Shown here one piece after another: positions 7,590 to 56,006 of a DNA stretch of 64,000 bases. Below the pieces are notes generated by a model. That model worked only from the letters and a program-made list of their open reading frames with translations, did not search any database and was not told where the DNA came from. Both the position numbers and the translations under genes were made by a program. The stretch is from Streptomyces sp. SJL17-4 (GTDB lineage Bacteria; Actinomycetota; Actinomycetes; Streptomycetales; Streptomycetaceae): positions 372,001 through 436,000 of the forward strand of contig NZ_CP104578.1 in assembly GCF_036826855.1 (NCBI RefSeq). The letters are read 5' to 3'. How positions within the stretch are numbered: position 1 is the stretch's first letter; each line of letters begins with the position of its first letter.

Positions 7590-8738
7590 TCAGACGCCGG
7601 AGGGCACCTCGGCCTTCTCGGTGGATCCCGTGTGTTCTCCCTCGCCCGCCGCCAGCCTGCGGTTGCGGCGGACGGAGGACCAGAAGGACCAGGCGATCAG
7701 GATGACACCGATGAGACCGGTGACCACCTCGGGGATCTGGTAGCGGATGGAGATCATGAGGATCACGGCCAGCGCGCCGATGGCGTAGTGGGCGCCGTGC
7801 TCCAGGTAGACGTAGTCGTCGAGGGTGCCCTGGCGGACCAGGTAGACCGTCAGGGACCGGACGTACATCGCGCCGATACCGAGGCCGAGCGACATCAGGA
7901 CGATGTCGTTGGTGATCGCGAAGGCGGCGATGACACCGTCGAAGGAGAAGGAGGCGTCGAGGACCTCCAGGTAGAGGAACATGAAGAACGCGGCCTTGCC
8001 GGCCATCACAATCGCGGGGACCTGCTTGCCGCTCCTCCGGGCCTCTTCCTCGGCCTCGTGCTCGCGCTCCTCCTCTTCCTCCAGCTTGTTCTCGAAGTAG
8101 CCGGAGAGACCGCCGACGACGAGGTACGTGATCAGGCCGAAGACGCCCGAGAGCAGGACGGTCGACGCCTTGTCGACGTGCGTGCCGCCGTGCTGGTGGG
8201 CCTGGGTCGCGAAGGTCATGGCGCTGATCGCCAGGACGACCAGGGCGATGCAGACCGACAGCATGTCGATCTTGCCGAGCTTGGCGAGCGGGCGCTCCAG
8301 CCAGCCGAGCCACTTGATGTCGCGGTCCTCGAAGATGAACTCGAGGAAGATCATCAGCAGGAACATCCCACCGAAGGCCGCGATCGACGGGTGGGCGTCG
8401 GTGACGAGCTGCTCGTAGCGCTCGGCGTCGTTGATCGCCAGATCGACGGCCTCGATGGGGCCGACCTTGGCACTGATCGCCACGATCACGACGGGGAAGA
8501 CCAGCCGCATGCCGAAGACGGCGATGAGCACACCGATGGTGAGGAAGATCTTCTGCCAGAAGGCATTCATCTTCTTCAGGATCCCGGCGTTGACCACCGC
8601 GTTGTCGAAGGACACCGAGATCTCGAGGATGGACAGGATCGCCACGATCCCGAAGGCCGCCCAACCCCCGTATATCACCGCCGCGACGAGGCCGAGCGCG
8701 GTCACCGCGAACGACCAGCCGAACGTCTTCAGAAGCAC
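7590..8738 (-). CDS. DUF475 / TerC-like integral membrane protein
   Basis: The 382-residue product has at least eight hydrophobic segments and matches the DUF475 family, which belongs with TerC, the membrane component linked to tellurite resistance and to metal-ion handling. Diagnostic blocks are the paired acidic membrane motifs ILEISVSFDNAVVNAG near residue 40 and EVLDASFSFDGVIAAF near residue 255, each putting Asp/Glu within the membrane, as expected of an ion-binding transporter. A highly charged Glu-rich loop lies near residues 205-225. In Streptomyces such genes often accompany TerD-type proteins, but none is adjacent here. The GTG start at 8738 has only a weak ribosome-binding site. 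Confidence 0.85.
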   Translation of the reverse strand: MLLKTFGWSFAVTALGLVAAVIYGGWAAFGIVAILSILEISVSFDNAVVNAGILKKMNAFWQKIFLTIGVLIAVFGMRLVFPVVIVAISAKVGPIEAVDLAINDAERYEQLVTDAHPSIAAFGGMFLLMIFLEFIFEDRDIKWLGWLERPLAKLGKIDMLSVCIALVVLAISAMTFATQAHQHGGTHVDKASTVLLSGVFGLITYLVVGGLSGYFENKLEEEEEREHEAEEEARRSGKQVPAIVMAGKAAFFMFLYLEVLDASFSFDGVIAAFAITNDIVLMSLGLGIGAMYVRSLTVYLVRQGTLDDYVYLEHGAHYAIGALAVILMISIRYQIPEVVTGLIGVILIAWSFWSSVRRNRRLAAGEGEHTGSTEKAEVPSGV

Positions 8739-8951: not shown

Positions 8952-9848
8952 ATGATGTCTTCCCAACTCCCCTTACGCTTCGGTGTCAACATGTTCGTCA
9001 CCGGTTCGCGACACGAGTGGCGTGCGAAGTGCCGCAGAGCCGAGGAACTCGGTTTTGATGTGGTCGGAGTGGCCGACCACCTAGGAATGCCCGCACCGTT
9101 TCCGGCGATGGTGCTCGCCGCCGAAGCGACCGAACGAATACGGCTGACGACGTTCGTGTTGAACACGCCGTTCTACAATCCCGCTCTTCTCGCACGTGAT
9201 GTGGCGAGTACCGACCAGTTCATCGACGGGCGTATGGAGCTCGGGCTCGGCGCAGGCTATGTGAAGGCCGAGTTCGACACCGCGGAGATCCCGTTCCCCA
9301 GCGGCGGAATGCGGGTCGACCAGCTGGAACGGACGGTGACCACGCTGCGTCGTCTGTTCAACGACCCCGAATACCAGCCGCGTCCGGCGCAGCCCTCCGG
9401 GCCGCCCCTGCTCATCGCGGGCTGGGGCGACCGGCTGCTGCGGGTGGCCGCCGCGCACGCCGACATCATCGCTTTCCCGGGAGGCTGGGCGAACGCCGCC
9501 GGCGATTCACTTCAACTGGCCGGAACCGCGCAGATGGAAGAACGCATCACCTATGTGCGCGGCCTGCTCGGCGACCGCGCCGACTCCGTGGAACTCAATC
9601 TTCTGGTGCAGCAGGTAATTCCGCCCTCCGAAGGCGCCTCGGTACCTGACAGATTCGCTCCCCTGCCGCCCGACGCCGCGCACAGCCCCGAGGACGTTCC
9701 CAGCGTGTTGGTCGGAACCCCCGCGGACATGGCACAGCAGATCAAGGAACGTCGCGAGCGCTACGGCTTCACCTACTTCACGGTCATGGAATACAACATG
9801 GAGAATTTCGCTCCGGTCATCGCCGCGCTCGGGGAGCGGTCGGCGTGA
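8952..9848 (+). CDS. LLM-class (luciferase-like) flavin-dependent oxidoreductase, TTA codon at position 8
   Basis: The 298-residue protein has the TIM-barrel pattern of the luciferase-like monooxygenase class, probably using F420 or FMN: FGVNMF at the first strand, VADHLGMP, RIRLTTFVLNTPFYNP, and GRMELGLGAGYVKAEFD. Members oxidise or reduce small metabolites. The start is taken at ATG 8952 (ATG 8955 and GTG 8937 are alternatives). Codon 8 is TTA (8973-8975), implying dependence on bldA. Its stop overlaps the GTG of the following histidine phosphatase gene (GTGA), so the two are coupled. They converge on the LuxC-like gene across a shared terminator. Participation in the neighbouring pathway is inferred. 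Confidence 0.8.
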   Translation: MMSSQLPLRFGVNMFVTGSRHEWRAKCRRAEELGFDVVGVADHLGMPAPFPAMVLAAEATERIRLTTFVLNTPFYNPALLARDVASTDQFIDGRMELGLGAGYVKAEFDTAEIPFPSGGMRVDQLERTVTTLRRLFNDPEYQPRPAQPSGPPLLIAGWGDRLLRVAAAHADIIAFPGGWANAAGDSLQLAGTAQMEERITYVRGLLGDRADSVELNLLVQQVIPPSEGASVPDRFAPLPPDAAHSPEDVPSVLVGTPADMAQQIKERRERYGFTYFTVMEYNMENFAPVIAALGERSA

Positions 9849-10498
9849 ATCCCGCTCTCGCCCGGGGCGGCTCCACGACCCTTGTGCTGCTACGCCACGG
9901 TGAGACGGCCCTGACACCGGAGAAGCGGATATCCGGCAGTGGCGGCTCGGATCCGGCGTTGTCGGAGACCGGGCTGCGGCAGGCCGAGGCCGCCGGCAGG
10001 GTGCTCGTGGCACGCGGCCCGGTGCAGGCGGTGGTGTCCTCGCCGCTGCGCCGGGCCCGGCAGACGGCCGAGGCGGCGGCTCGTCGTCTGGGACTGGAGG
10101 TCCATGTCGACGAAGGGCTCACCGAGGCGGATTTCGGCGCCTGGGAGGGACTTACCTTCGCCGAGGTGCGCGAGCGCCACCCGGACGAGCTCGCGGCGTG
10201 GCTCGCCTCTCCGAAGGCCGTGCCGGGCGGAACCGGGGAGACGTTCTCCGCGGTCGCCCGGCGGGCCACTCTCTCGCGGGACCGCCTCCTGGCACGGTAC
10301 GAGGGGCAGACGGTGCTGGTCGTGTCGCATGTCGGGGTGCTGCGGACACTGCTTCGGCTGGCGCTGGGCGCACCGCCGGTGACGCTGTTCCGGATGGAGC
10401 TGTCGGCGGCCTCGCTGTCGGCCGTGACCTATTCCGGGGACGGGGCCGCGTCGGTACGACTGCTCAACGACACGTCGCACCTGACGGACCACCGCTGA
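9845..10498 (+). CDS. Histidine phosphatase family protein
   Basis: This 217-residue protein belongs to the histidine phosphatase (phosphoglycerate-mutase-like) superfamily. The phospho-acceptor motif LLRHGET is near residue 16, SSPLRRARQTAE near residue 65 supplies the conserved arginine, the catalytic acid region is EADFGAWEG, and the second histidine is in VVSHVGVLRTL. The family removes phosphate from sugars, nucleosides, cobalamin precursors and others; the substrate here is unknown. The GTG start overlaps the stop of the luciferase-like gene by four bases, so the pair is one operon. It lacks the RNase H domain found in the common actinobacterial bifunctional relative. Confidence 0.8.
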   Translation: MNPALARGGSTTLVLLRHGETALTPEKRISGSGGSDPALSETGLRQAEAAGRVLVARGPVQAVVSSPLRRARQTAEAAARRLGLEVHVDEGLTEADFGAWEGLTFAEVRERHPDELAAWLASPKAVPGGTGETFSAVARRATLSRDRLLARYEGQTVLVVSHVGVLRTLLRLALGAPPVTLFRMELSAASLSAVTYSGDGAASVRLLNDTSHLTDHR

Positions 10499-10503
10499 CC
10501 GCG

Positions 10504-10544
10504 GCAGCCCCTGGGGTGGTGCTCGGCACTGCCCCATGGGCTGC
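10504..10544. terminator. Long bidirectional terminator between phosphatase and LuxC-like genes
   Basis: GCAGCCC at 10504-10510 pairs with GGGCTGC at 10538-10544, and an inner stem running from 10512 to 10536 closes on a three-base loop with two G-T pairs. The result is a nearly continuous 19-pair hairpin midway between two convergent genes. Confidence 0.7.
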
Positions 10545-10589
10545 ACGCGGGGCGGTGCCGGGCACAGCCCCGGTGGTCGTCAGCGGCTG

Positions 10590-11951
10590 TCAGCGTCGAA
10601 TCGTCTTGGTCCGCATGAGGAACTCGGCGAGGTAGCCGTCGTGCGGCAGGCCGTGCGCCATCCACGGTGTCGGATGGTCACCGACGTAGACGTTGGCGAT
10701 GGTCGGCTCGGCCACCAACGCGTCGATCAGGTTCGCGTCGGTGGTGACGGCGGTGAGGACGAGGGTGTCGCGCAGCGGCCGGATCCCGGCGTCGCGGTCC
10801 CAGGGGGCGACCCACGCGCAGGGGAAGCCCAGTTCCATGCCGAGCTGTTCGGCGAACGGGCTGTCGAGCTGGTGCACCGCCGGCCGGAGCGCCGCCGAAC
10901 CGTCGCCGAGATCGCCGACGATGCTGTCACCGCCGAGCCAGGGCTTGGTGCCCGCTGCCCGCTGCCGCAGGTACGCGTCCCACCGACGGGCGGGACCGAT
11001 GGGCATGACGGGCAGGACCGCGCGTTCGTCCGTCGGGGGCAGGGTGGGCAGCGCGGCGAGGCGTTCGGCGAGCGCCGCGGCCACGGGCGCGGGGTCGCCC
11101 TCGACGAGTATCCCGGTGGCGTTGACGCAACCGACGCCCCCACCACCGCTGATCGACTCCACGAGGGTGTCGACGATCGGCTCCCAGTCCGTCTCGGCGG
11201 TGATGAGTATCTTGGAGCGCCCGGGTCCCTGCGGCAGTACGCGTCGGTCGTCCGCGTACTTGCCCACGACGTCCGCGCCGCCGTACACCATTCCCAGGTC
11301 GGCGTGCCGGAGGATGTCACCGGCCACGTCGTGGTCGGTGGGCAGCAGCGCGATTCCCTCGTCGCCGAACCCGGCCTCGCGCAGGGCGGTGATCAACCGG
11401 TGGGGAGTGAAGGGCTCACGACGGGAGGGGCGCACGGCGACGCGATAGCCCAGCGCGAGGGCGTCGAACCAACCCTGGTGCACCGCGGGGTGGTTGCCCG
11501 CCGCGTGGACGGCGAACACCTCACCGCGCCGGGTCCACACCGCCGCGCCGCCCTGGGCCCGCGGATCGCGCCACGAGCCGACCGCGGCGGCCGGCCGCGC
11601 GTTCTCCACGCTGTGGCGGATCCGCTCGGCGGCCCCCGCGATGTCGGCGGTGGCGTCGCGCACCACCGTGATCGGTATCCCGGTGGTCGCACTGACGGTG
11701 CGCTGGTACTCCTCCGCCGTCAGCCCCGCGACCGTCTGCGTGGCGAAGGCCCGGCCCGCCTGTGCGAACGCCGCGATCCGTGCGTCGAGGGGTGGCGCCG
11801 GTGCTCGGCGCATGGCCTTGATCGCGCGGGTGACGTAGAGCGAGGGTGCGAGGCTCAGTGTCGCGACCTGGTTCCCGGTGAGATCTCGCACGGCCTCCTG
11901 GCGCCGGGACCGATAGGGGCCTCCGGGGCCGAGAACGTCCAGGGACAGCAT
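10590..11951 (-). CDS. LuxC-like acyl reductase (aldehyde dehydrogenase superfamily)
   Basis: The 453-residue protein fits the LuxC/acyl-CoA reductase branch of the aldehyde dehydrogenase superfamily, which reduces an enzyme- or CoA-bound acyl thioester to an aldehyde with NADPH. The catalytic cysteine is likely C275 in GGGGVGCVNATG, and the nucleotide-binding region contains VHAAGNHPAVHQGW and RPSRREPFTPH. Its ATG overlaps the stop of the LuxE-like gene (TGATG), so the two are translated together, as expected of an acid reductase pair. It is the last gene of a four-gene minus-strand run and ends at the shared terminator. The acyl substrate is unknown. No luxA/luxB/luxD set is present, so light emission is not implied. 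Confidence 0.75.
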   Translation of the reverse strand: MLSLDVLGPGGPYRSRRQEAVRDLTGNQVATLSLAPSLYVTRAIKAMRRAPAPPLDARIAAFAQAGRAFATQTVAGLTAEEYQRTVSATTGIPITVVRDATADIAGAAERIRHSVENARPAAAVGSWRDPRAQGGAAVWTRRGEVFAVHAAGNHPAVHQGWFDALALGYRVAVRPSRREPFTPHRLITALREAGFGDEGIALLPTDHDVAGDILRHADLGMVYGGADVVGKYADDRRVLPQGPGRSKILITAETDWEPIVDTLVESISGGGGVGCVNATGILVEGDPAPVAAALAERLAALPTLPPTDERAVLPVMPIGPARRWDAYLRQRAAGTKPWLGGDSIVGDLGDGSAALRPAVHQLDSPFAEQLGMELGFPCAWVAPWDRDAGIRPLRDTLVLTAVTTDANLIDALVAEPTIANVYVGDHPTPWMAHGLPHDGYLAEFLMRTKTIRR

Positions 11952-13009
11952 CAGTACACGCCCTCGACCACGGCCGTGGCACCGAAGGTCGCCACGGGTG
12001 CGACGTCCGCGACCGAGTCACCGAAGCCGCCGTCCACCGGTGCGATCCGCGTCGCGCAGTCCCGCTCGATGTTGTTGACCAGCAAGGCGCTTCGGCTCAT
12101 GTGATGCACCACGATGCGCCCGCGCTCCCCGTACGGAACCACCTGGCCGGTGTCGGGGTCGATCACCCGGAACGTGGTGTACGGCGCGAAGGAGTCGAAG
12201 ACGCACGGCTCGTCGTCCCGGAGACCGGGTCGCTCCACCGCTGTCCCCAGCATCATCGTGCCGCCGTACCCGCCGACCAGCTTGATGCCGCCGAAGACCT
12301 CGTCGCGCAGCAGGTCCCGGGTGTCGGCGTCCAGATGCGTACCGCCCCAGATGATCGCGCGAACCTTCCGGTTCACCAGCTCGACCAGGTCGTCGTGCTG
12401 CGAAAGGCGCTCGAGGAGCGGCGGGGTGGCGAAGAGGACGCCCACGTCCTGGCCGGTCAGGATGTGGCCGACCTGTTCGATGAGGTGATCGGTGTAGGCG
12501 TCGGCGACGTCCGTCCGGCCCTCCGCGATCAGCTTCTTCACCCATCGCGGGTCCAGATCGATGCTGAAGTTCAGCCCACCCCGCAGCGTCGCGGTGTCGA
12601 CCGCCATCGCTCCGACGTTGTGCGGCCCGGTGGGGACGGCACTGAGCCAGTCGACGTCTCGGGGTACGCCGTGGGAGTCCAGTCGCTCACTGAACCACTC
12701 GACGCTGCGCCGATGCCACTCCGCGCTGTACGGGACCGCCTTGGGCCGCCCCGTGGTCCCGCCGCTCTCGTAGACGGCCGCCTCGTGCTTGTCGCCGTAG
12801 CCACGGGGAATCAGGTCACGTACGGCGATGTCGCGCAGCTCGTCCACCACGTTGGGGAACAGGCTGAGATCGTCGAAGTCCCGGACATCGGTCAGCGGAT
12901 CGAAATCGAGACTCTCGGCCCGTCTCAGCCAGAACGGGGACCCGGTCTCCGGACTGAAGTGCCACCGCATCATCTCCCGAACGAACTCTCCGCCGGTGTG
13001 CTCGACCAT
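11951..13009 (-). CDS. LuxE-like acyl-protein synthetase / AMP-forming ligase
   Basis: This 352-residue protein resembles LuxE and phenylacetate-CoA-ligase-type adenylating enzymes, which activate a carboxylic acid as acyl-AMP and pass it to a thiol. The phosphate-binding motif ESGGTTGRPKAVP lies at residues 81-93, GGYGGTMMLGTA near residue 235 resembles the second adenylation motif, and YGERGRIVVHHMSRSAL lies towards the C-terminus. The ATG at 13009 has AGAGGAAG just upstream. The gene ends one base into the LuxC-like gene, and 38 bases separate it from the upstream flavoenzyme. Together with LuxC it would turn an acid into an aldehyde; which acid cannot be told. Confidence 0.75.
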   Translation of the reverse strand: MVEHTGGEFVREMMRWHFSPETGSPFWLRRAESLDFDPLTDVRDFDDLSLFPNVVDELRDIAVRDLIPRGYGDKHEAAVYESGGTTGRPKAVPYSAEWHRRSVEWFSERLDSHGVPRDVDWLSAVPTGPHNVGAMAVDTATLRGGLNFSIDLDPRWVKKLIAEGRTDVADAYTDHLIEQVGHILTGQDVGVLFATPPLLERLSQHDDLVELVNRKVRAIIWGGTHLDADTRDLLRDEVFGGIKLVGGYGGTMMLGTAVERPGLRDDEPCVFDSFAPYTTFRVIDPDTGQVVPYGERGRIVVHHMSRSALLVNNIERDCATRIAPVDGGFGDSVADVAPVATFGATAVVEGVY

Positions 13010-13047
13010 GGTCTTCCTCTCGGAACAGGTGGACAGAAGCCCGGGAT

Positions 13048-14133
13048 TCACCGGGCGGTGGAGAGTCCCGTCGTGTCGATCCAGGATTCCTTCTCGAGCA
13101 CGAGGTCTCGGACGATCTCTCCGGCGGCAGGTGCCTGACACAGTCCCTGACCGGAGAAGCCGGCCGCGTAGAAGAACCGGCGGGAGTGCTCGCGGCCGAT
13201 GAAAGCCATCCCGTCCGGGCTGACGTCGAGGTCACCGCTCCATCCGCTGTCGAGGCGGTGGCCGGCGAGCGTCGGAAAGGTCGTGCCGAGGTGGTGCGAC
13301 ACCCGTCGCAGCCAGTCCTGTCGGGTCTCGTCCGGAGCGGGGCGGCCCATCCCCACGAGGATGCGGTCCCCCCAGCTTCGAATCCGCAGGCTGGAGGGGT
13401 GCATGGTCATCGGCAGAGCGTCGTGCGGGGCACTGCCGGGGGCGTCGGTCAGGAGCATTTCGACGGGGTACGTCGTCACAGGAAGGCGCACGTCGGCCAT
13501 GGCGGCGACCGTGCCCGCCCAGGGGCCTGCCGCGCAGATCACATGGTCGGCGCGGATGCTTCCCGACGGCGTGTGGACCCGACCGTCCGGGTCGATGCCG
13601 GTGACGGGTGTGTCCGTGCGCAGGACGGCGCCGGCCTGCTGGGCCGCCTCGGCATAGCCGCGCACGATCGCGGCGGGGTCGCAGGCGTAGGCCTCGGGCG
13701 ACCAGGCGGCCGCCAGGACGGTCCGCTCGTCGACCAGCGGATTGAGCCGCGCCGCTTCGGCCGCGGTCACCAGTTCGACGTCCACTCCGGCTGCCCGCTG
13801 TGCGGCGTGGGTCTGCCGGAAGTCCCGCACCTGCTGTTCGTCGGTGAACAGCACGAGGAGGCCGATGCGCCGCAGACCGAGGTCGGTTCCGGTGCGTTCG
13901 GCGAAGGCCCGGTAGGCGGCCAGGCTCCGGACGGCGAGGCTGCTGATGAGGGGCTTGCCCGGAAAGTAGGTGCGCACCACGCCCGCGGTGGTCCCGGACG
14001 ATCCCGATCCGAGTGCGCCTCGCTCCAGCAGGACGGTACGGACGCCCGACTCGGCGAGCCGGAACGCTGTCGAGTTGCCGATGACACCGCCGCCGATGAC
14101 GACGGCGTCCACGCGTTCGGGGAGTCGGCTCAC
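13048..14133 (-). CDS. FAD-dependent amine/amino-acid oxidoreductase (DAO family)
   Basis: The 361-residue protein has the Rossmann motif VVIGGGVIGNSTA at about residues 11-23, the acidic adenosine-ribose contact (LLERG), the SGSSGTTAG flavin block and a C-terminal RRFFYAAGFSGQGLCQAPAAGE motif, all typical of the glycine/sarcosine/D-amino-acid oxidase family. These enzymes oxidise secondary or primary amines next to a carboxylate. The GTG start overlaps the stop of the upstream cucumopine-synthase-like gene (GTGA). A role in dehydrogenating a cyclic amine made by that neighbour is attractive but inferred. The cytoplasm is the likely site; no signal peptide. Confidence 0.8.
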   Translation of the reverse strand: MSRLPERVDAVVIGGGVIGNSTAFRLAESGVRTVLLERGALGSGSSGTTAGVVRTYFPGKPLISSLAVRSLAAYRAFAERTGTDLGLRRIGLLVLFTDEQQVRDFRQTHAAQRAAGVDVELVTAAEAARLNPLVDERTVLAAAWSPEAYACDPAAIVRGYAEAAQQAGAVLRTDTPVTGIDPDGRVHTPSGSIRADHVICAAGPWAGTVAAMADVRLPVTTYPVEMLLTDAPGSAPHDALPMTMHPSSLRIRSWGDRILVGMGRPAPDETRQDWLRRVSHHLGTTFPTLAGHRLDSGWSGDLDVSPDGMAFIGREHSRRFFYAAGFSGQGLCQAPAAGEIVRDLVLEKESWIDTTGLSTAR

Positions 14134-15143
14134 CGCTGGCGGACCGGTTCGTCGGAGCGCAGCTGGCGCAGGTGGTCTCCGGCTTCCCACGGGTACAGGT
14201 GCAGGTTCCAGCCACCCAGGCAGTTGATGTAGAGGGCGAGCTGGCCCGCCACGGCGAGGAAGTCCTCGCGGTCGAGCCGGTCGACGCAGTCCAGGAAGCG
14301 CTGGGTGAAGCTCCACAGCTGTTCCAGGCCGCAGTAGCCCAGGAACTCGGCAGGAATGCCGACCAGCAGGCGCGTCATATGACGCAGTGAGTCCATCGGC
14401 ATGTCCTGGACCGCGCCGCGGATCAGACCGCCGTACGTGGCGTAGCCCAGCGGCCGGGTCTCACCGTTGACGAACAGCAGAGTGGGCAGCACCGTCTCGA
14501 AGCTTCCCGCCCCGGAAGGGATCGACCCCGCGTGGAGGTCGGCGAGCTCCTTCGGCTCGGAGAGCCAGGCCCGTTCGGTCGCGGTGTGCACGTCGTGGAT
14601 GAGTCGGCTCGCGTCGGGATCCGCGGCGGTCAGCTTCGGAATGCGGTGGCCGCCTTCGGCTCCCGCCCTGCGGACCTCCACCAGGATCGGCTTCTTCGTC
14701 GAATAGACCGAATCCCAGACCGCCTTCCCGGCCTCCAGCAGTCCCGGCACGTCCTCCTGCCGGATCCGGCCCACCGGGGACGCCGGCATCGGTTCGGTCA
14801 GCGTGCCGTACTTGATGCCCAAATGCTGCAGAGCGGAGAGGAATACGGTCCCGTCGGGTGCGTCGCGTCGATCGGGTATCCGGGTTTCCGCGGTCAGGTG
14901 CAGCAGCGAGGGGATCGGTGCCGCGTGATAGAGGTGCTCTCCCGCCACCAGCGCGTGTCCCTGCAGGCTCTGGTAGGGCAGAGCCTCCCATAACGCGTCG
15001 GCGAGTTCGGTGTTGCGGCCGTCGAGTTCCGCGGTCACGGTGATGCCCAGGTCGGGCCAGGAAATCTCGATCTGCCGGCCGGAAATCGTTTCAGTCAAGG
15101 CTTTTCCTTCGTTCGGTTGACCTGTATGAGAACTCCCTGCCAT
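14130..15143 (-). CDS. Cucumopine-synthase-like protein (cyclophilin-like plus helical domain)
   Basis: This 337-residue protein has an N-terminal half with the look of the cyclophilin-like DUF3830 fold (GITVTAELDGRNTELADAL, WEALPYQSLQGHALV, LYHAAPIPS) and a helical C-terminal half (MDSLRHMTRLLVGIPAEFL, GLEQLWSFTQRFLDCVDRL) resembling the C-terminal bundle of cucumopine synthase. Cucumopine synthase joins L-histidine to 2-oxoglutarate with ring closure. The assignment rests on recalled similarity and needs a profile search. Codon 51 is TTA (14991-14993). ATG 15143 has GAGG four bases upstream; a TTG at 15098 with GAAGGA is an alternative start. First gene of a coupled four-gene run. Confidence 0.55.
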   Translation of the reverse strand: MAGSSHTGQPNEGKALTETISGRQIEISWPDLGITVTAELDGRNTELADALWEALPYQSLQGHALVAGEHLYHAAPIPSLLHLTAETRIPDRRDAPDGTVFLSALQHLGIKYGTLTEPMPASPVGRIRQEDVPGLLEAGKAVWDSVYSTKKPILVEVRRAGAEGGHRIPKLTAADPDASRLIHDVHTATERAWLSEPKELADLHAGSIPSGAGSFETVLPTLLFVNGETRPLGYATYGGLIRGAVQDMPMDSLRHMTRLLVGIPAEFLGYCGLEQLWSFTQRFLDCVDRLDREDFLAVAGQLALYINCLGGWNLHLYPWEAGDHLRQLRSDEPVRQR

Positions 15144-15222
15144 CGCGCCTCAACGTACCGGCGATCACGTGCGGCCCCACCCCTGATCAACCCCCTATCG
15201 TGGCGGGCCTCCCACCCCAGCG

Positions 15223-15237
15223 CCGGTGGATCACCGG
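15223..15237 (-). terminator. Short stem-loop after the LAL regulator
   Basis: CCGGTG at 15223-15228 pairs with CACCGG at 15232-15237 around a three-base loop, 26 bases past the stop of the regulator gene. It is short, so it may be a weak terminator; it also lies in the promoter region of the four-gene run that starts at 15143. Confidence 0.3.
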
Positions 15238-15263
15238 AGCCCACCGGCCGGACGCGGAGTGCT

Positions 15264-18011
15264 TCAGTGATCCGCCGAGCCCACCAGGCCCAGCTCCACC
15301 GGCAGGCCGAATCGGCTGCTCACTCCGAGTTTTCGATAGGTCTTGGTGAGATGCTGCTCCACGGTGCTCACCGTGATGAAGAGAGTCCGGCTTATCTCAC
15401 GGTTGCTCCGCCCCTGGGCCGCGAGGGCCGCGACCTTGCGCTCGGCTTCACTGAGCAGGGCGAACCTGTGGATGGTCGTCCGCAACGCGGGCTTGTCGCC
15501 CGGTTCCTCCGCCCTGCCGGAATTCTGCAGCCTCCGGTAGAGCGGTTCGGCCCCGCACGTCTTGGCCATCCGCTTCGCCTGATGGTTGATGAGCCTGAAT
15601 TCGGCGACATGGCCGCATTCGAGTTCCGCGTCACTCGAATCGGCGAGCGCCATGGCCAACTCGAGCCGGTCCCCGGAGTCGAGGAGCACCTTCACCGCGT
15701 CCCTCAGCAGGGAAGCTCGGGCCGGCTGCTTCACCGTCGCGGCCATGATCCGCAGGGAGCGCCCACGCACTCGGGTGTCGTCGACGTCCGCCAGCGCCAA
15801 CTGCTCGTCGAGGAGTGCTGTGGCACCGAGTGGATCGTCGAGACGCAACCGCGCCTCCGCCAGGTCGCTTCGCCAGGGGACGACATTCGGACGGTCGAGA
15901 GCGGTGCCGCGGAGAAGGCGACCGCACGTCTGAAAGTCCGCCAACGCCGCGTACGGGCGGTTGTTCTCGAGGTAGAAGCGTCCACGAGCACGCAGGAAGT
16001 GCAGCCAGAGCGGATTGCGACGCGCCTCGGGAAGCACCTCCTTGATGAGGGTCTCCGCTTCGTCCGTCCTGCCCATGGCCGTGGTGACGTGGACGAGGCA
16101 GGAGAGCGGCAGCCCGAGGGCCGCACCCCAGTTGTGCCGAGGCATCACGGTCACGGCGCGGCGCGAGTGCCGCTCGGCCTCGACCAGGTCACCCCTGCGG
16201 AGCGCCACGAGGCCCTGGACGGCCGCGAGCACGGCCACCCACGCCACGGCCTGCAGCGCTTCGGCCTCCGGCCCGAGCGCTTCGCACCAGCGTTGGGCGT
16301 CGTCCAGCCTGTTGTCGAAGGTGAGAACGAGCAGAGCGGACAGCACGGTGACCGGGAGGGCGTCGGCGATCCTGCAACACTGCAGGACCTGTTCGGCACT
16401 CTTGACGAGGTCGCTCCACGACTCGCACTCGGCGGTCTCCTCGGCGCGGTGCGACGGGGTGGTCCCGTCGGCACCGTCCGTGCCCTTGAAGGGCACCACC
16501 CATCGAATCCACTGACGCGCGAGCGTCGACTCGGCGGCACCGGTCAGATCGCACTCGCCTTCCTGGGTGCCGGCCCGCTCCAGCACCAGGGCGGCCTCGT
16601 CGGCGCGGCCCTGCCAAGCGAGGAGGGTACTGAGCGCCACGACGTCCCGGTCGGCCAGACCGCCCTCCTGGAGCAGGGAGTACAGCGGCGCGAGGAGTGG
16701 GGTCACCGCCGTCGGCTTCGTCAGCCACAGGACCCGCGCCAGCGCGCCCGTCACCTCGGCCCGCTCCCGGGCATCGCCGCAGGCTTGCCGGGCAACCTCG
16801 AGGAACTCGGCCGCGCGGCTGGGATTCCCTTCCCTCAGCGCTTGCCAGGCGGCGTCGCGGAGGACGTCCACGGACCAGTTCTCCGCGATGCCCCCCGCGG
16901 CGACCAGACGTTCGGCGACCTCGGACGGCACCGCGCCGTCGGAGTGAAGCAGCAGTGCGGTGCGCTCGTACAGGGCGGCGAGCGCCTCGCCGTCGAGCCC
17001 GCTCAGCGCGGCGGCCCGGGCGGCCTGGTGGCTGAACCATCCGGAGCGGAGCAGCCCCGTTCCGGCGAGAGCGTCCAACGCCTCCACTACCGTCCGCTGC
17101 TCGCTGTCGAGCAGCCGGGCCAGTACGTCGGCCGATGCCGGGGCACCGAGGGCGGCCAAGCCGCGGGCCACATCGAGGAGTCGAGGATCCCAGCGGTGCA
17201 GGCACGCCTCGACGGCGACCTTGAAGTGAGCCCCTTTGAGCGCCGCGTCCGTCGGGGAGACCGCATCGACGTCTTCGGGATCACGCTCGTAGAACCCGCG
17301 ACACCGGTCCTGGAACAGCGCCTCAAGGAGCAGCGGACTGCCGCCTGTCGCCGCCAGGAAGGAGGGAGCGAGCCGTTCCGCGTTCGCCTCCCCCAGACGT
17401 CGCTTCCGCAGCCAGTCGGTCACGCCGTGACGGGAGAGCGGCTGCACGTTCAGAAGATGGAAGTACGGCTGCTTGATGAACTCGGCCAGGACCAGCGGGG
17501 GCTCGGAACTGAAGACGCGCCACTCGGCGAATACGGTGACGACGGGATTCGACGCGAGTCGGCGCAGGATCAGCAGGAGAGCCTGCAGACTGGCCGGATC
17601 CGCGTATTGCGTGTCATCGACAGCCAGCACCAGAGGTTGCCCACCCGCGGCTTCGAGGAGTAGCTCGGTCAGCTCATCCACTGCGCAAGGGCTCAGCGAA
17701 GAATCTCGGGAATTCACTCCCGGAAGGGCGAGGAGCCGCTCGACCCGCTCCCCCTTCTCCACGCCAAGATCGATGGAGCGTAATAACTGAGCCAGCACGC
17801 CTAAGGAGTGGACCTGCCCGGATCGTGCCCCCGACGCACTCAGCACGAGGGCGCCGGCGCTCTTCGCGTACCCGGTGAAGCCGGAGAGGAGTGTCGTTTT
17901 CCCCGCGCCCCCCGGGCCTGTCACGAGGGCGACCGTTCGGCCGTTCGTCGTGCAGTCGTTCAGCATTCGCTTCAGGCTTTGAAGCTCGATTTCCCTCTCG
18001 ACCAAAACCAC
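15264..18011 (-). CDS. LAL-type LuxR-family regulator with three TTA codons
   Basis: The 915-residue product is a large ATP-binding regulator of the LuxR family. An N-terminal AAA-type ATPase has Walker A GPGGAGKTT at residues 32-40 and a Walker B-like LVLAVDDTQYAD; a long helical middle region follows; the C-terminal helix-turn-helix contains GRSNREISRTLFITVSTVEQ and HLTKTYRKLGVSSR. Such proteins usually activate a nearby secondary-metabolite cluster. Codons 70, 76 and 77 are all TTA (17802-17804, 17784-17786, 17781-17783), an unusually dense set, so translation should depend strongly on bldA. The GTG start at 18011 lies about 50 bases after a good sigma-70 promoter. It sits 120 bases upstream of the biosynthetic run on the same strand. 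Confidence 0.9.
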   Translation of the reverse strand: MVLVEREIELQSLKRMLNDCTTNGRTVALVTGPGGAGKTTLLSGFTGYAKSAGALVLSASGARSGQVHSLGVLAQLLRSIDLGVEKGERVERLLALPGVNSRDSSLSPCAVDELTELLLEAAGGQPLVLAVDDTQYADPASLQALLLILRRLASNPVVTVFAEWRVFSSEPPLVLAEFIKQPYFHLLNVQPLSRHGVTDWLRKRRLGEANAERLAPSFLAATGGSPLLLEALFQDRCRGFYERDPEDVDAVSPTDAALKGAHFKVAVEACLHRWDPRLLDVARGLAALGAPASADVLARLLDSEQRTVVEALDALAGTGLLRSGWFSHQAARAAALSGLDGEALAALYERTALLLHSDGAVPSEVAERLVAAGGIAENWSVDVLRDAAWQALREGNPSRAAEFLEVARQACGDARERAEVTGALARVLWLTKPTAVTPLLAPLYSLLQEGGLADRDVVALSTLLAWQGRADEAALVLERAGTQEGECDLTGAAESTLARQWIRWVVPFKGTDGADGTTPSHRAEETAECESWSDLVKSAEQVLQCCRIADALPVTVLSALLVLTFDNRLDDAQRWCEALGPEAEALQAVAWVAVLAAVQGLVALRRGDLVEAERHSRRAVTVMPRHNWGAALGLPLSCLVHVTTAMGRTDEAETLIKEVLPEARRNPLWLHFLRARGRFYLENNRPYAALADFQTCGRLLRGTALDRPNVVPWRSDLAEARLRLDDPLGATALLDEQLALADVDDTRVRGRSLRIMAATVKQPARASLLRDAVKVLLDSGDRLELAMALADSSDAELECGHVAEFRLINHQAKRMAKTCGAEPLYRRLQNSGRAEEPGDKPALRTTIHRFALLSEAERKVAALAAQGRSNREISRTLFITVSTVEQHLTKTYRKLGVSSRFGLPVELGLVGSADH

Positions 18012-44012: not shown

Positions 44013-46454
44013 ATGCCATCTCCCTGGCCTCGCCGCACCTTCCTCCACGCCGCCGGTGGGGGCGCGCTCGCCGTCGGACTCACCGGGACTCTCGCGCACC
44101 CCGCCGGCGCCTCCGAAGTCCTCGACGCCGCGGGGACGTTCACCGCCGCGTCCGACGCGGAGTACGACGCGCTGCGCGGCAGGTGGCGCGACCTCGTCCT
44201 CGGTACGGGCTTCAGCCCGACCGCGGAGCCGTTCCGGACCATCCTCGGCACCCTCGGCACGACCGCGGCCGGCTACCGGGCGACGATGGCCCCGGCAAGC
44301 GGTTCGCTCTGGCCCGGCCGCTCCTGGGCCGACCCGGAGCCCGATCTCGACGCCGAGTCGTACGCCTTCTCGGCGGCCATGAACGACAGCTACAACCGGC
44401 TGCGCACCATGGCCGAGGCGTACTCCCAGCCGGGCACCGGACTGACCGGGGACACCGGACTGCGGGACGCCGTCCTCACCGGGCTCGACCACCTCTACTC
44501 CGAGGTCTACAACGAGCACACGACGCGGTACGGCAACTGGTACAACTGGCAGATCGGCGCCCCGCAGGCGCTGATGGACACCTGTGTGCTGATGTACGAG
44601 CACCTGTCGGCGGCGCAGATCTCCGCCTACTGCCGGGCCGTGGACGCGTTCGTGCCGGAATCGGTCTTCGCCTCGTACACCGGGACCAGTACCGGAGCCA
44701 ACCGGGTCGACCTGTGCCGCGGAGTCGTCCTGCGCGGCATCGTCGGCAAGGACCCGGCCAAGATCACGCTGGCGTCCCGGGCGCTGGCCCCGGTCTTCCC
44801 CTACGTCACCTCGGGCGACGGCTTCTACGCCGACGGGTCGTTCGTCCAGCACCGCAACGTCCCCTACATCGGCGGTTACGGCGCGGTGCTGCACGACGGT
44901 GTGGGCCGGCTGCTCGCGCTGCTGCGCGGGTCGAGCTGGGAGGTGACGGGACCGGGCACACAGCTGTTCCTCGACACGATCGAGAAGGCCGTCGCGCCGT
45001 TCATCTACAACGGTCTGATCATGGACAACGTCAGCAGCCGGGGCATCAGCCGCATCGGCACCAACGAACACCAGCGCGCCCACGGCCTGATGGCGACCAT
45101 CCTGCTGGTCGGCCAGGGGGCGAGCCCCGAGGAGAACGCCCGCTGGCGGGCGATGGTCAAGGGCTGGCTGCGACGCGACTACTACTACCCGGCGCTCAAG
45201 AACCCCGGCCTCAGCCTGATCAGGGCCTCGCTCCTGCAGGCGCTCCAGGACGACGCCTCCGTGCAGGCCGCACCCGAGCCCGTCGAGCACCGGCTGTTCC
45301 CCAACATGGCACGGGCCACCCACCGGCGCCGCGACTGGGCGGCCTCCTTCTCCATGGCCTCGAACCGCATCGCCCACTACGAGTTCGGCAACGGCGAGCA
45401 CGCCCGCGGCTACCACACCGGCGCCGGGTGGCTCTCCTGGTGGGGCCGCGACTTCGGTCTGGAGCAGTACTCGGACGCCTACTGGCCCACCGTCGACCCC
45501 TACCGCCTGCCCGGCATCACCGCCTCGCGCAAGCCGCTCGCCGACGGCGAGGGCGGCAACTGGGGGCAGCCCATGCCGGACGCGGCCTGGGTCGGCGGCA
45601 CCACCGACGGCGAGTACGCCGCCATCGGCCAGCACCTCAAGGGCCTCTCCAGCACCCTGGACGCCAAGAAGTCCTGGTTCTGCCTCGACGACTCGATCGT
45701 CTGCCTCGGCGCCGGCATCACCGCCACGGACGGCCATGCCGTCGAGACGACCGTCGACAACCGCGCCCTCGGCGCGACGGGCGCCCCCGTCCTCACGATC
45801 GACGGCCGGCCGCAGCCGGTCGCCCAGGGCTGGACGGGCACCTTCGACGACGCCGAGTGGGCCCACATCGCCGGACAGGCGGGGTACGTCTTCCCCGGCG
45901 GCGCCAAGCTCGGCGCGGTACGCGAGGAGCGCACCGGCTCCTGGCGGGACATCAACACCGGCGGCTCCCCCGACCCGATCACCCGCCGCTACCTGACCCT
46001 CGTCACCGACCACGGCATCGATCCGACCGGCGGCGACTACGCCTATGTCCTGCTGCCGGGAGCGAGCGCCAGCACCACCGCGCAGCGCGCCCACGACCGT
46101 GGATGGCTGCGGATCCTCGCCAACTCCGGTGCCCAGCAAGGCGTCCGCGTGCCGAAGCTGGCCCTCACCGCCGTGAACTTCTGGAGCGCGGGCACCGTCG
46201 AGAGGCTGCGCGCGAGCGCCCCCGCCTCCGTACTCGTACGGGAGCACCGCAACGGCACGGCGACCCTCGTCGTCTCGGACCCCGCGCGGCAGGCCACGTC
46301 CCTGGAGATCGTCTGGAACCGCAGGGTGAGCACGGTGCTCTCCAAGCCCGCCACGGTCACCGCCGCCACGACCGGTTCGTCGCTGAAGCTCACCTTCGGC
46401 GATCTCACCGGCCAGGCCGGCGCGCCCCAGAAGATCACCGTCCGCCTCGGCTGA
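44013..46454 (+). CDS. Secreted polysaccharide lyase family 8 (hyaluronate/chondroitin/xanthan lyase type)
   Basis: The 813-residue protein starts with a twin-arginine signal (PRRTFLHAAGGG, cleavage near residue 33). The catalytic triad of family 8 is visible with the exact spacing of pneumococcal hyaluronate lyase: N230 in GANRVD, H280 in FVQHRNV and Y289 in IGGYG. An alpha/alpha toroid (about 40-380) is followed by the beta-sandwich domains. It cleaves uronate-containing polysaccharides by beta-elimination outside the cell. Which polymer it attacks is unknown; an exopolysaccharide cluster starts 480 bases downstream. It has a terminator and a divergent DeoR/LacI-type regulator. Confidence 0.9.
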   Translation: MPSPWPRRTFLHAAGGGALAVGLTGTLAHPAGASEVLDAAGTFTAASDAEYDALRGRWRDLVLGTGFSPTAEPFRTILGTLGTTAAGYRATMAPASGSLWPGRSWADPEPDLDAESYAFSAAMNDSYNRLRTMAEAYSQPGTGLTGDTGLRDAVLTGLDHLYSEVYNEHTTRYGNWYNWQIGAPQALMDTCVLMYEHLSAAQISAYCRAVDAFVPESVFASYTGTSTGANRVDLCRGVVLRGIVGKDPAKITLASRALAPVFPYVTSGDGFYADGSFVQHRNVPYIGGYGAVLHDGVGRLLALLRGSSWEVTGPGTQLFLDTIEKAVAPFIYNGLIMDNVSSRGISRIGTNEHQRAHGLMATILLVGQGASPEENARWRAMVKGWLRRDYYYPALKNPGLSLIRASLLQALQDDASVQAAPEPVEHRLFPNMARATHRRRDWAASFSMASNRIAHYEFGNGEHARGYHTGAGWLSWWGRDFGLEQYSDAYWPTVDPYRLPGITASRKPLADGEGGNWGQPMPDAAWVGGTTDGEYAAIGQHLKGLSSTLDAKKSWFCLDDSIVCLGAGITATDGHAVETTVDNRALGATGAPVLTIDGRPQPVAQGWTGTFDDAEWAHIAGQAGYVFPGGAKLGAVREERTGSWRDINTGGSPDPITRRYLTLVTDHGIDPTGGDYAYVLLPGASASTTAQRAHDRGWLRILANSGAQQGVRVPKLALTAVNFWSAGTVERLRASAPASVLVREHRNGTATLVVSDPARQATSLEIVWNRRVSTVLSKPATVTAATTGSSLKLTFGDLTGQAGAPQKITVRLG

Positions 46455-46931: not shown

Positions 46932-48455
46932 GTGTGGAGCCAACACGTCGAGCCCACTGACGCCCTGGGGGGGTCTGTGCAGCAGGGTGAGTTAGTCAGT
47001 CCGTTCCCATCGGCGCGCGGACGGCTGGAGAACGGACCGATCAGCCGGACCACCACCGACTGGGAGCAGCGCTACCGCCGGGCCGTCATCACCAGCGACA
47101 CCGTGGCCACCGCCTTCGTGGTGGCGGCGATCGGCGGCTTCTTCGGGGTCCGGGACGCGGCCGACTGGCACGAGAAGTGGAGAATTCTCGCCTTCGCCAC
47201 CGAACTGCTCGTCCTGGCGGCGCTCGCGGTGAGCCGGTCCTGGTCCCCCGCCGTACTCGGCCAGGGCGCCGAGGAGTTCCGCCGGCTCGGACGCTCGCTC
47301 TGCGCGGCGGCCGTCCTCCTGGCGCTGGTCGGGATCGCCCTGACCTCGCGCAACATCAAGCTCTGGATCTTCGTCGCGATACCGGTGATCGCACTCGTCA
47401 CCATGACCGAGCGGTATCTGCTCCGCCTCTGGCTGCACAAACAACGGAAAGAGGGACGGTGTCTGCGCCCGGTGCTCGCTGCCGGGAGCCCGGCCACCGT
47501 GCGCGATCTGATCTCCCGGACCCGGAAGTTCCCGCACCTCGGCTGGCGGGTGGAGGCGGTGTGCACGGCGGACCGTCCCGGGCTCGACGTCGACCAGGTG
47601 GACGGGGTGCCGGTCGTCGGTGAACTGGCCGACGTGGCGGGCCATGTACGCCGCAACGGCTACCGGGTCGTCGCGGTCACACCGGACCCGCACTGGTCTC
47701 CGGACCGGCTGCAGCGGCTGGCCTGGAACCTCGAGGGCAGCGATGCCGAGATGGTCGTGGCGCCCGTGCTCATGGAGGTGGCGGGGCCGCGGCTGCACGT
47801 CGACGCGGTGCTGGGGATCCCGCTGCTGCGGGTCAGCATGCCGACCTTCACCGGGGGCCGCCGGGCGGTCAAGGAGGTCGTCGACCGGCTGGGCGCGGCG
47901 ATCCTGCTGATGCTGCTGGCACCGCTGATGCTGGTCGTCGCCCTGCTCGTGCTGGTGGACAGCCGGGGTGGCGCGGTCTACCGGCAGCGCAGGGTCGGCA
48001 AGGACGGCCGCGAGTTCACCATCCTCAAGTTCCGCACCATGGTCGTCGGCGCCGACGCGGCACGCGCCGAACTCGCCCACCGCAACGAGGGCGCAGGCCT
48101 GCTGTTCAAGCTCCGCCGCGATCCACGGGTGACCCGGGTGGGAACGGTGCTGCGCCGGTACTCGCTCGACGAACTGCCGCAGCTCTTCAACGTGCTCACC
48201 GGCTCCATGTCGCTGGTCGGCCCACGGCCGCCGTTGCCGGAGGAGTCCGCCGCGTACGGGCCGGACATCCGGCGGCGTCTCCTCGTCAAGCCGGGACTCA
48301 CCGGCCTGTGGCAGATCAGCGGACGCAGCGACCTGTCGTGGGAGGAGGCGGTCCGGCTGGATCTGCGGTACGTGGAGGACTGGTCGCTCGCCCTGGACAC
48401 GGTGATCTTGTGGAAGACGCTGCGTGCGGTGATCCATGGGCAGGGGGCCTACTGA
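46932..48455 (+). CDS. Exopolysaccharide polyprenyl glycosylphosphotransferase (initiating enzyme)
   Basis: The 507-residue membrane enzyme starts chain assembly by moving a sugar 1-phosphate to undecaprenyl phosphate. Four membrane segments occupy about residues 50-165, a nucleotide-fold region follows, and the C-terminal sugar transferase domain (about 310-507) shows KEVVDRLGAAILLMLLAP, RQRRVGKDGREFTILKFRTM, GPRPPLPEES and KPGLTGLWQISGRSDLSWEE. The GTG at 46932 has GGAGG four bases upstream. Codon 21 is TTA (46992-46994), so translation of the first gene of the cluster should need bldA. The start is set by the repeated hairpin leader just before it. Confidence 0.85.
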   Translation: MWSQHVEPTDALGGSVQQGELVSPFPSARGRLENGPISRTTTDWEQRYRRAVITSDTVATAFVVAAIGGFFGVRDAADWHEKWRILAFATELLVLAALAVSRSWSPAVLGQGAEEFRRLGRSLCAAAVLLALVGIALTSRNIKLWIFVAIPVIALVTMTERYLLRLWLHKQRKEGRCLRPVLAAGSPATVRDLISRTRKFPHLGWRVEAVCTADRPGLDVDQVDGVPVVGELADVAGHVRRNGYRVVAVTPDPHWSPDRLQRLAWNLEGSDAEMVVAPVLMEVAGPRLHVDAVLGIPLLRVSMPTFTGGRRAVKEVVDRLGAAILLMLLAPLMLVVALLVLVDSRGGAVYRQRRVGKDGREFTILKFRTMVVGADAARAELAHRNEGAGLLFKLRRDPRVTRVGTVLRRYSLDELPQLFNVLTGSMSLVGPRPPLPEESAAYGPDIRRRLLVKPGLTGLWQISGRSDLSWEEAVRLDLRYVEDWSLALDTVILWKTLRAVIHGQGAY

Positions 48456-48489
48456 TGCGCGGGGGACGTCGTCCGGTCGGCTCGGGGAC

Positions 48490-48520
48490 GGCAGGCCGCG
48501 AGGGCCTGCCCGGGGGGAGG
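48490..48520 (+). promoter_or_regulatory. Hairpin plus ribosome-binding site in front of the sugar dehydrogenase gene
   Basis: GGCAGGCC at 48490-48497 pairs perfectly with GGCCTGCC at 48503-48510, and GGGGGGAGG follows directly. The arrangement and sequence closely copy the leader of the preceding gene (GGGCCTCCCGGGGGGAGGAAC there, GGGCCTGCCCGGGGGGAGG here). It could act on translation or be a mild terminator between the two genes. Confidence 0.55.
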
Positions 48521-48528
48521 AACAGGGC

Positions 48529-54050: not shown

Positions 54051-54053
54051 GAC

Positions 54054-55979: not shown

Positions 55980-56006
55980 AAGGCCGAGAAAAACAAGGGG
56001 ACTTCG

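Follow-up and report, generated by a model that had tools for sequence, protein, structure and literature searches.

What small molecule is made by the genes between 8,952 and 15,098 of the window, the 64,000-nucleotide stretch of DNA from Streptomyces sp. SJL17-4 analyzed here, and from which amine and which carbonyl compound? A first-pass annotation had regarded them as a candidate undescribed natural-product locus, in which a LuxE/LuxC pair supplies an aldehyde, a cucumopine-synthase-like protein condenses it with an amine such as histidine, and a flavoenzyme oxidizes the resulting ring. The open frames on which that reading was built are all present, and the products assigned to them and to their flanks are as follows.

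7590..8738, minus strand, TerC/DUF475 membrane protein (PF04332, E = 2e-137)
8952..9848, plus strand, F420-dependent LLM oxidoreductase, 298 aa (TIGR03621; Bac_luciferase, E = 1.7e-28)
9845..10498, plus strand, histidine phosphatase, 217 aa (His_Phos_1, PF00300, E = 1.3e-58)
10590..11951, minus strand, EhpG-type aldehyde-dehydrogenase-fold reductase, 453 aa (Aldedh, E = 3.9e-12)
11951..13009, minus strand, EhpF-type adenylating enzyme, 352 aa (PDB EhpF 3l2k/3hgu; AMP-binding)
13048..14133, minus strand, DAO-type FAD oxidoreductase, 361 aa (PF01266, E = 2.2e-67)
14130..15098, minus strand, McbB-type Pictet-Spenglerase (PSase) (Cucumopine_C; PDB 3x27; identity to McbB)
15264..18011, minus strand, LAL-type LuxR regulator (AAA_16 and GerE, the LAL architecture)

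Gene layout

The genes for PSase, DAO and the EhpF- and EhpG-like proteins lie on the minus strand, and the LLM and phosphatase genes, which overlap each other by 4 bp, converge on them from the plus strand. The profile matches of the last two proteins and of DAO agree with the luciferase-like oxidoreductase, phosphatase and flavoenzyme originally named there, and the LLM protein scores 342 bits against TIGR03621 (cut-off 213). PSase likely starts at the TTG at 15098 behind GAAGGA, which gives 322 aa; the ATG at 15143 (337 aa) is a possible alternative. The GTG start of the DAO gene, whose match lies in an open frame at 13048-14316 (minus strand), overlaps the PSase stop by 4 bp (GTGA), and the EhpF- and EhpG-like genes overlap by 1 bp (TGATG). 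The four genes had been described as overlapping throughout, but the likely ATG start of the EhpF-like gene at 13009 leaves a 38-bp gap to the DAO gene. As had been noted before, PKS and NRPS families are absent, here from 19 scanned ORFs, which are part of those that lie in the region from 3.4 to 28.5 kb.

An McbB-type Pictet-Spenglerase

In a Pfam profile search, the minus-strand frame at 14130-15143 matched Cucumopine_C (E = 3e-45) and did not match DUF3830, the second family suggested for it. The closest solved structure is PDB 3x27 (E = 1e-88; query residues 11-328 on chain residues 11-333), which bears the molecule name "Cucumopine synthase" and is taken as the McbB structure in PMC11015028. 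PSase and McbB are 47.8% identical over 312 aa, with both domains covered. R92, H107 and E117 of PSase (numbered as in P0001) are invariant in 20/20 aligned sequences, the window included, and align with R72, H87 and E97 of McbB in the 3x27 alignment, where the offset was set by hand. The latter three are presumably the active-site Arg, His and Glu of McbB. An AlphaFold2 model of PSase, built on an alignment of 20 close sequences, has a mean pLDDT of 48.

Homologues on Agrobacterium and Rhizobium plasmids, in contrast, share 27.5-28.5% identity with PSase among hits covering at least 79% of the query, and the agrobacterial proteins are presumed to be cucumopine-type opine synthases from their DUF3830 label. 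Because PSase is nearer than these homologues (about 28%) to McbB (48%), a tryptophan enzyme, tryptophan is a likelier amine than histidine, and the cucumopine/histidine reading was dropped. Judged by its sequence, PSase is an McbB-type Pictet-Spenglerase, for which beta-carboline formation from tryptophan is predicted.

The EhpF/EhpG-like pair

LuxE and LuxC, the names first given to the next two proteins, turn an acid into an aldehyde by a two-enzyme logic with ANL- and ALDH-type proteins, and LuxE is acylated on Cys. Neither protein of the locus, however, matches PF04443 (LuxE) or PF05893 (LuxC) at E <= 1 in a Pfam profile search, and the alignment of nine EhpF-like sequences has no invariant Cys, so that membership in LuxE/LuxC was rejected. 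The Pantoea counterpart of EhpG hits PF05893 at 18.5 bits (cut-off 21). The specific kin are EhpF and EhpG. The EhpF-like protein aligns with the EhpF structures 3l2k/3hgu (E = 3e-79, residues 51-396 of P0003), is 40% identical to Pantoea EhpF, and in the profile search matches AMP-binding (E = 5.8e-14) and not AMP-binding_C, the ANL C-terminal domain; its C-terminus reads EGVY in seven and EGLY in one of the eight rows of the nine-sequence alignment that reach the end. The EhpG-like protein is 34% identical to the ALDH adjoining EhpF on a Pantoea phenazine plasmid and 57% identical to that of a B. ubonensis phenazine cluster, and its Cys275 is invariant (6/6 aligned). In phenazine clusters, the gene immediately following an EhpF-like gene encodes an EhpG-like partner. 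EhpF-O except EhpJ convert phenazine-1,6-dicarboxylate into D-alanylgriseoluteic acid, griseoluteic acid being a 6-hydroxymethyl phenazine, according to PMC3175449.

At 84% identity or more, EhpF was found in only 3 of 199 genomes, and these three are also the ones whose PSase reaches 84%, which speaks for the pathway proposed below. Against it, 12 of the 15 genomes that gave a PSase match lack such an EhpF, and EhpG has matches at E <= 1e-60 in 38 of the 199. Among 16 sampled PSase-less pairs, three lie in clear phenazine clusters, another has a PhzE-like neighbor at 26-27%, and four (L084, L089, L094 and L097) have neighbors of mixed kinds. An EhpG-like neighbor is missing at 17 of the 58 places listed for EhpF-like genes, and in 2/5 annotated plasmid stretches (L059 and L060). 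No phz family was found among the neighbors scanned around the SJL17-4 locus. Since EhpF/G-like pairs are widespread and clear phenazine clusters account for only 3/16 of those sampled, the substrate cannot be read off from the kinship, and the idea that it proves a phenazine-like substrate was rejected; the kinship counts as support rather than proof.

Comparison of 39 loci

Thirty-nine loci, the SJL17-4 window included, fall into several architectures. The exact set of six genes (PSase, DAO, EhpF, EhpG, phosphatase and LLM) defines the A type (11/39). The B type (22/39) has PSase, DAO and phosphatase with a cassette of a Carbam_trans-family carbamoyltransferase and an SRPBCC-type protein, and lacks EhpF/G; the AB type (3/39) has both EhpF/G and carbamoyltransferase and lacks LLM; and three loci have neither EhpF/G nor carbamoyltransferase. 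EhpF/G thus stand alongside PSase in 14/39 loci, the window included, a co-occurrence that had been expected. DAO is present in 38/39 loci, the phosphatase in 36/39, and LLM in all 11 A-type loci and none of the 28 others; the Nonomuraea locus L061 gave matches to PSase and DAO only. The strand of the phosphatase relative to PSase varies among architectures. A-type PSases form one clade (support 100/98), and the six genes occur together in 10/10 of the other A-type loci. Gene families, gene order, conservation, and kinship to McbB and EhpF/G are all observed here.

The flanking genes behave differently. The LAL activator, although its architecture is as annotated, finds no match better than 37% in any of the 38 other loci, and within the stretch examined 2 of the other 10 A-type loci have a 36-37% match and none a close counterpart; not being conserved, it was rejected as part of the locus. 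The TerC/DUF475 family occurs in 8/38 clustered loci, the window included, with a partial 99% match in L025, and its protein is regarded as a frequent neighbor of A-type loci that is probably not biosynthetic.

Proposed pathway and its alternatives

In Streptomyces sp. ID38640 and S. alboverticillatus, these six genes were put forward in 2021 as the cluster for pyridindolol, a putative assignment given without genetic proof in the accessible text (PMC7955054). The antiSMASH output described there held no cluster linkable to pyridindolol, which bears out the suspicion that cluster finders may miss such a locus. The hypothesis, as far as the accessible text presents it, joins Trp with glyceraldehyde or its phosphate, aromatizes the ring by an FAD and/or F420 enzyme, and reduces the carboxyl group by the aldehyde dehydrogenase, leaving the ligase and the phosphatase without a role there (PMC7955054). 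Rather than being undescribed, the SJL17-4 locus would be a new member of this already hypothesized pyridindolol-type cluster.

The locus probably makes, from tryptophan and a sugar-derived aldehyde, pyridindolol, which we take to be 1-(1,2-dihydroxyethyl)-3-(hydroxymethyl)-beta-carboline, or a close relative. PSase would join L-tryptophan to a sugar aldehyde of three carbons, of which glyceraldehyde-3-phosphate is the probable one, and close the ring of a tetrahydro-beta-carboline; that the aldehyde is phosphorylated is suggested by two things only, the conservation of the phosphatase and PMC7955054. Tryptophan might instead meet another carbonyl compound, oxaloacetaldehyde as used by McbB (PMC7024544) or an alpha-keto acid, such as the alpha-ketoglutaric acid of KslB (PMC12513458), to give a different 1-substituted 3-hydroxymethyl-beta-carboline. 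The 48% identity to McbB speaks for such a choice, but it is unlikely, given that the phosphatase found with PSase and DAO in 36/39 loci fits a phosphorylated aldehyde and that pyridindolol-associated strains share the gene set (PMC7955054).

In the route to pyridindolol, DAO, whose ID38640 homologue is 39% identical to StnP2 (PMC7955054), would oxidize the tetrahydro ring to the aromatic beta-carboline-3-carboxylate. The earlier idea of Pictet-Spengler-type chemistry followed by a possible ring oxidation through the flavoenzyme is thereby retained. The phosphatase would strip the side-chain phosphate brought in by the sugar-phosphate aldehyde. The EhpF-like enzyme would then activate the 3-carboxylate as acyl-AMP, the acyl group would pass to Cys275 of the EhpG-like reductase, which would reduce it to the 3-aldehyde, and the LLM enzyme or a host reductase would form the 3-hydroxymethyl group. 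The role of LLM, aldehyde reduction or ring redox, is uncertain; EhpF/G occur without LLM in 3/3 AB-type loci, where the step would call for a different reductase.

From cluster context only, we infer that the pair reduces a tricyclic aromatic carboxylate. It probably acts on beta-carboline-3-carboxylate after ring closure instead of supplying the condensing aldehyde, and this placement, like the phosphatase role given above, is our own proposal. The older assumption, in which the pair makes the aldehyde from some acid for condensation with histidine or tryptophan and oxidation by DAO, agrees with the need of Pictet-Spenglerases for an aldehyde and with the presence of an ANL- and ALDH-type pair in the direction of PSase. 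It is nevertheless quite improbable: PSase, DAO and phosphatase are kept without the pair in 22/39 loci, which argues that EhpF/G are a tailoring cassette; their kin in phenazine clusters meet an acid on a finished ring system; and PSase is distant from the agrobacterial plasmid homologues. A silent locus, or one that comprises no single pathway because LLM and phosphatase are unrelated to the minus-strand operon, is very hard to believe despite the convergent orientation and the lack of LLM in B and AB loci, as the six genes stay together in 11/11 A-type loci, whose PSases are 82-90% identical to the window's, and the phosphatase is on the PSase strand in 22/22 B and 3/3 AB loci.

Few beta-carboline pathways have been worked out, and the accessible part of PMC12513458 names only STR, McbB and KslB as skeleton-forming enzymes, StnK2 not being counted. 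The pyridindolol-type route proposed here would give roles to both genes that the published hypothesis leaves unassigned: the ligase would form one half of an EhpF/G-type acid reductase, and the phosphatase would handle a sugar-phosphate aldehyde. More tentatively, PSase, DAO and phosphatase could be a fixed core for dihydroxyethyl-beta-carboline-3-carboxylate on which lineages swap cassettes (EhpF/G with LLM, carbamoyltransferase with SRPBCC, or both without LLM), the second branch perhaps leading to undescribed carbamoylated beta-carbolines. This carbamoyltransferase-bearing sister family is larger and less explored, no product of it was found in the open-license literature, and rule-based cluster finders may miss it.

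Comparison with known systems

McbB resembles PSase over the full length of its two domains, and the residues matching its R72, H87 and E97 are retained. McbB also decarboxylates and oxidizes (PMC7024544), whereas the SJL17-4 locus has a separate DAO flavoenzyme and the 3-carboxyl group is expected to be reduced. The agrobacterial DUF3830 plasmid proteins are likewise similar along the whole length, Cucumopine_C region included, but at about 28% identity only. LuxE/LuxC of bacterial luminescence follow a similar two-enzyme ANL and ALDH-type logic, yet belong to other Pfam families, and the Cys on which LuxE is acylated has no invariant equivalent in the EhpF-like alignment. EhpF/EhpG of the D-alanylgriseoluteic acid pathway share the EhpF sequence kinship, the missing ANL C-terminal domain and the adjacent ALDH-fold partner; the Pantoea pair is 40%/34% identical and acts on a phenazine diacid, while a beta-carboline acid is the expected substrate here. 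For the putative pyridindolol cluster of ID38640, PMC7955054 lists the genes in the order found here: a PSase, an FAD oxidoreductase, an AMP-binding ligase, an aldehyde dehydrogenase, a histidine phosphatase and an F420 LLM enzyme. Its likeness, and that of S. alboverticillatus, is judged by listed families, order and lengths: lengths are equal for PSase (322 aa), EhpF (352 aa) and EhpG (453 aa), and those of DAO, phosphatase and LLM are 361, 217 and 298 aa in SJL17-4 against 370, 218 and 293 aa in ID38640. The flanks differ, an AraC regulator and flavin reductases being listed for ID38640, whereas LAL and SDR genes flank the locus of SJL17-4.

Organization of the locus

The locus is best explained as a source of pyridindolol or a close relative, made from tryptophan and a C3 sugar aldehyde. 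The window spans positions 372,001-436,000 of an 8.54-Mb single-contig genome with exactly one McbB-type Pictet-Spenglerase (PSase), whose nearest relatives reside in Streptomyces. All the genes claimed by the first-pass annotation are present, and their matches to protein families, at E values between 1e-12 and 1e-67, are well beyond chance. Four minus-strand genes form an operon, and two plus-strand genes, which share 4 bp, face it:

14130-15098, minus strand: PSase (322 aa; TTG start preceded by GAAGGA)
13048-14133, minus strand: DAO flavoenzyme (361 aa; GTGA overlap)
11951-13009, minus strand: AMP-binding (EhpF-like) enzyme (352 aa)
10590-11951, minus strand: aldehyde-dehydrogenase-like (EhpG-like) enzyme (453 aa; TGATG overlap)
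8952-9848, plus strand: F420-dependent LLM oxidoreductase (298 aa, from coordinates)
9845-10498, plus strand: histidine phosphatase (217 aa)

Elsewhere in the window, a polysaccharide lyase family 8 enzyme with all three domains present is encoded at 44013-46454 (plus strand). The region 46932-58187 (plus strand) carries a series of co-directional ORFs and resembles a cluster for an exopolysaccharide or glycoconjugate; of four ORFs scanned, three matched a bacterial sugar transferase, an asparagine synthase and an ADH/GFO-IDH fusion, and one gave no match.

Identity of the PSase

The PSase had been described as cucumopine-synthase-like, which holds at the family level (Pfam Cucumopine_C, E = 3e-45), but the protein is nearer to McbB (47.8% identity over 312 residues) than to the Agrobacterium/Rhizobium plasmid proteins, mostly annotated as DUF3830, whose matches covering most of the query show 27.5-28.5% identity. 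All 20 sequences aligned share the residues that correspond to R72, H87, and E97 of McbB, which we take to be catalytic. The best solved relative, matched over nearly the whole length (E = 1e-88), is PDB 3x27, which bears the molecule name "Cucumopine synthase" and serves in PMC11015028 as the structure of McbB with tryptophan bound. Four other solved "Pictet-Spenglerase"/Cucumopine_C proteins (PDB 9uwa, 9uwb, 9ns6, and 9k0a) have their halves apparently swapped relative to the PSase, judging from a full alignment for 9uwb and from the alignment of the PSase N-terminal half to the chain end for the other three, which suggests a circularly permuted branch.

The EhpF/EhpG-like pair

The next two enzymes had been called LuxE-like and LuxC-like, an identity that must be replaced: PF04443 and PF05893 are absent from the pair at E ≤ 1 in a Pfam profile search, and the AMP-binding protein is kin to EhpF, its best match in the PDB (E = 3e-79; second best, E = 4e-7). 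A LuxE-type acyl-Cys is disfavored because no invariant Cys was found among nine aligned EhpF-like sequences. In the EhpG-like enzyme, Cys275 is a residue kept by all six sequences compared. The EhpF structure paper reportedly proposes that EhpF and EhpG jointly reduce an acid via its adenylate. In a Proteus phenazine operon, ehpF lies next to ehpG (PMC11278526), and EhpF-O, minus EhpJ, are described as converting phenazine-1,6-dicarboxylic acid into D-alanylgriseoluteic acid, griseoluteic acid being a 6-hydroxymethyl phenazine (PMC3175449).

EhpF relatives occur in 28 of 72,556 plasmid records searched, and the neighborhoods of five were viewed. An aldehyde dehydrogenase directly follows in three, those of Pantoea, B. 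ubonensis, and Streptomyces sp. Mg1 (34%, 57%, and 39% identical to the window EhpG-like enzyme, respectively), the first two stretches being phenazine clusters by annotation. Neither remaining stretch has this arrangement: in L059 the dehydrogenase lies on the opposite strand a few genes off, and in L060 none was found within 13 kb. In a search of 199 genomes of relatives, EhpG-like proteins (E ≤ 1e-60) were found at 41 places in 38 genomes, all 41 with an EhpF-like match within 2 kb, and 41 of 58 EhpF-like places (E ≤ 1e-40) have an EhpG-like partner equally close. The pair is a two-gene module found widely. Eighteen regions containing both were hand-picked, two with and 16 without a PSase; of the latter, three can be clearly recognized as phenazine clusters, and a fourth has nothing beyond a weak PhzE-like match. 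Since the module is widespread and mostly outside phenazine clusters, kinship alone cannot give its substrate. One such pair, in L089, lies near an AfsA-type gene.

Comparative genomics of PSase loci

We compared 39 loci: 37 with a PSase from one contig scan, the window, and L061, found by tblastn in a plasmid collection. The 37 were retrieved via exact peptide words of the query and are therefore close relatives (72-90%) rather than a survey of the family. DAO is present in 38 of the 39 and the phosphatase in 36. Architecture A (11 loci) comprises PSase, DAO, EhpF, and EhpG, the phosphatase and LLM genes lying on the opposite strand. Architecture B (22 loci: L018-L024, L026-L038, L013, and L015) comprises PSase, DAO, a carbamoyltransferase, an SRPBCC-type protein (Polyketide_cyc2/SRPBCC), and phosphatase, without EhpF/G. 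Three loci (AB; two Nocardia, one Streptomyces) combine EhpF/G with the carbamoyltransferase, and L014, L017, and L061 lack both. The B carbamoyltransferase belongs to the Carbam_trans family and is NodU-like, yet far under NodU's own cut-off; the window's genome has no close enzyme of this kind, its sole match (35%) lying elsewhere. No paper joining carboline, carbamoyltransferase, and Streptomyces was found in the open-licence literature. Because 22 loci retain the core without the pair, the proposal that LuxE/LuxC act first in the pathway is disfavored.

In a PSase tree of 41 rows (the 39 loci, McbB, and L050), a single clade (100/98) holds all 11 A loci and is nested in a 15-row group (99/94) with two AB and two B Nocardia loci. 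The third AB locus, L016, branches earlier with weaker support. For the tree as a whole, the bootstrap was not fully settled, and the outgroup branches are long. The simplest reading of this topology is that A descends from an AB-like locus after loss of the carbamoyltransferase. L050 (genome G080), whose PSase is 47% and adjoining DAO 43% identical to those of the window, forms a separate, more distant branch.

PSase matches, fragments among them, occur in 15 of the 199 genomes. EhpF at ≥84% identity is found in three of the 199, the same three that have PSase at ≥84%, and is missing from the other 12 genomes with a PSase match. The matches in G040, G038, and G006 are short or split, possibly broken copies.

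A xanthine-dehydrogenase-type molybdenum subunit lies near 17 of the 39 loci (L011-L015, L019-L022, L026, L029-L031, L033, L034, L036, and L038), accompanied in several arrangements by a TadA-like deaminase; in L029 the former exceeds the TIGR02965 cut-off and the latter falls under its family cut-off. This may reflect hitch-hiking or a functional link.

Discussion

In the pathway we propose, tryptophan would condense with a C3 sugar aldehyde, probably phosphorylated, to give a tetrahydro-beta-carboline, whose ring would be aromatized by DAO. The phosphatase would free the diol, EhpF/G would convert the 3-carboxylate into an aldehyde, and LLM or a host enzyme could reduce the latter to the alcohol. 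Within the searches made, three things are new: assigning two genes of this cluster to EhpF/EhpG, comparing tailoring cassettes across PSase loci, and the sister family bearing a carbamoyltransferase.

The locus picked out by the first-pass annotation is a real and sensible finding, but it is not undescribed, because this kind of cluster has already been proposed in print for pyridindolol (PMC7955054). Of 12 open-licence papers that mention pyridindolol, the others do not, by their titles and the starts of their abstracts, concern its biosynthesis; later proof may exist in subscription journals. According to PMC7955054, Streptomyces sp. ID38640 gives MS signals fitting pyridindolol and its glucoside and encodes a StnK2 homolog (49%) whose surroundings were proposed as the pyridindolol BGC, and the producer S. 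alboverticillatus has a syntenic region. Tryptophan and glyceraldehyde(phosphate) were proposed there as starting materials; the FAD and/or F420 enzyme would aromatize the ring, and the dehydrogenase would reduce the carboxyl group. The ligase and phosphatase were not given a role. The ID38640 proteins listed in PMC7955054 and those of the window agree closely in length: 322 and 322 aa for the PSase, 370 and 361 for the FAD oxidoreductase, 352 and 352 for the ligase, 453 and 453 for the aldehyde dehydrogenase, 218 and 217 for the histidine phosphatase, and 293 and 298 for the F420-dependent LLM enzyme, respectively.
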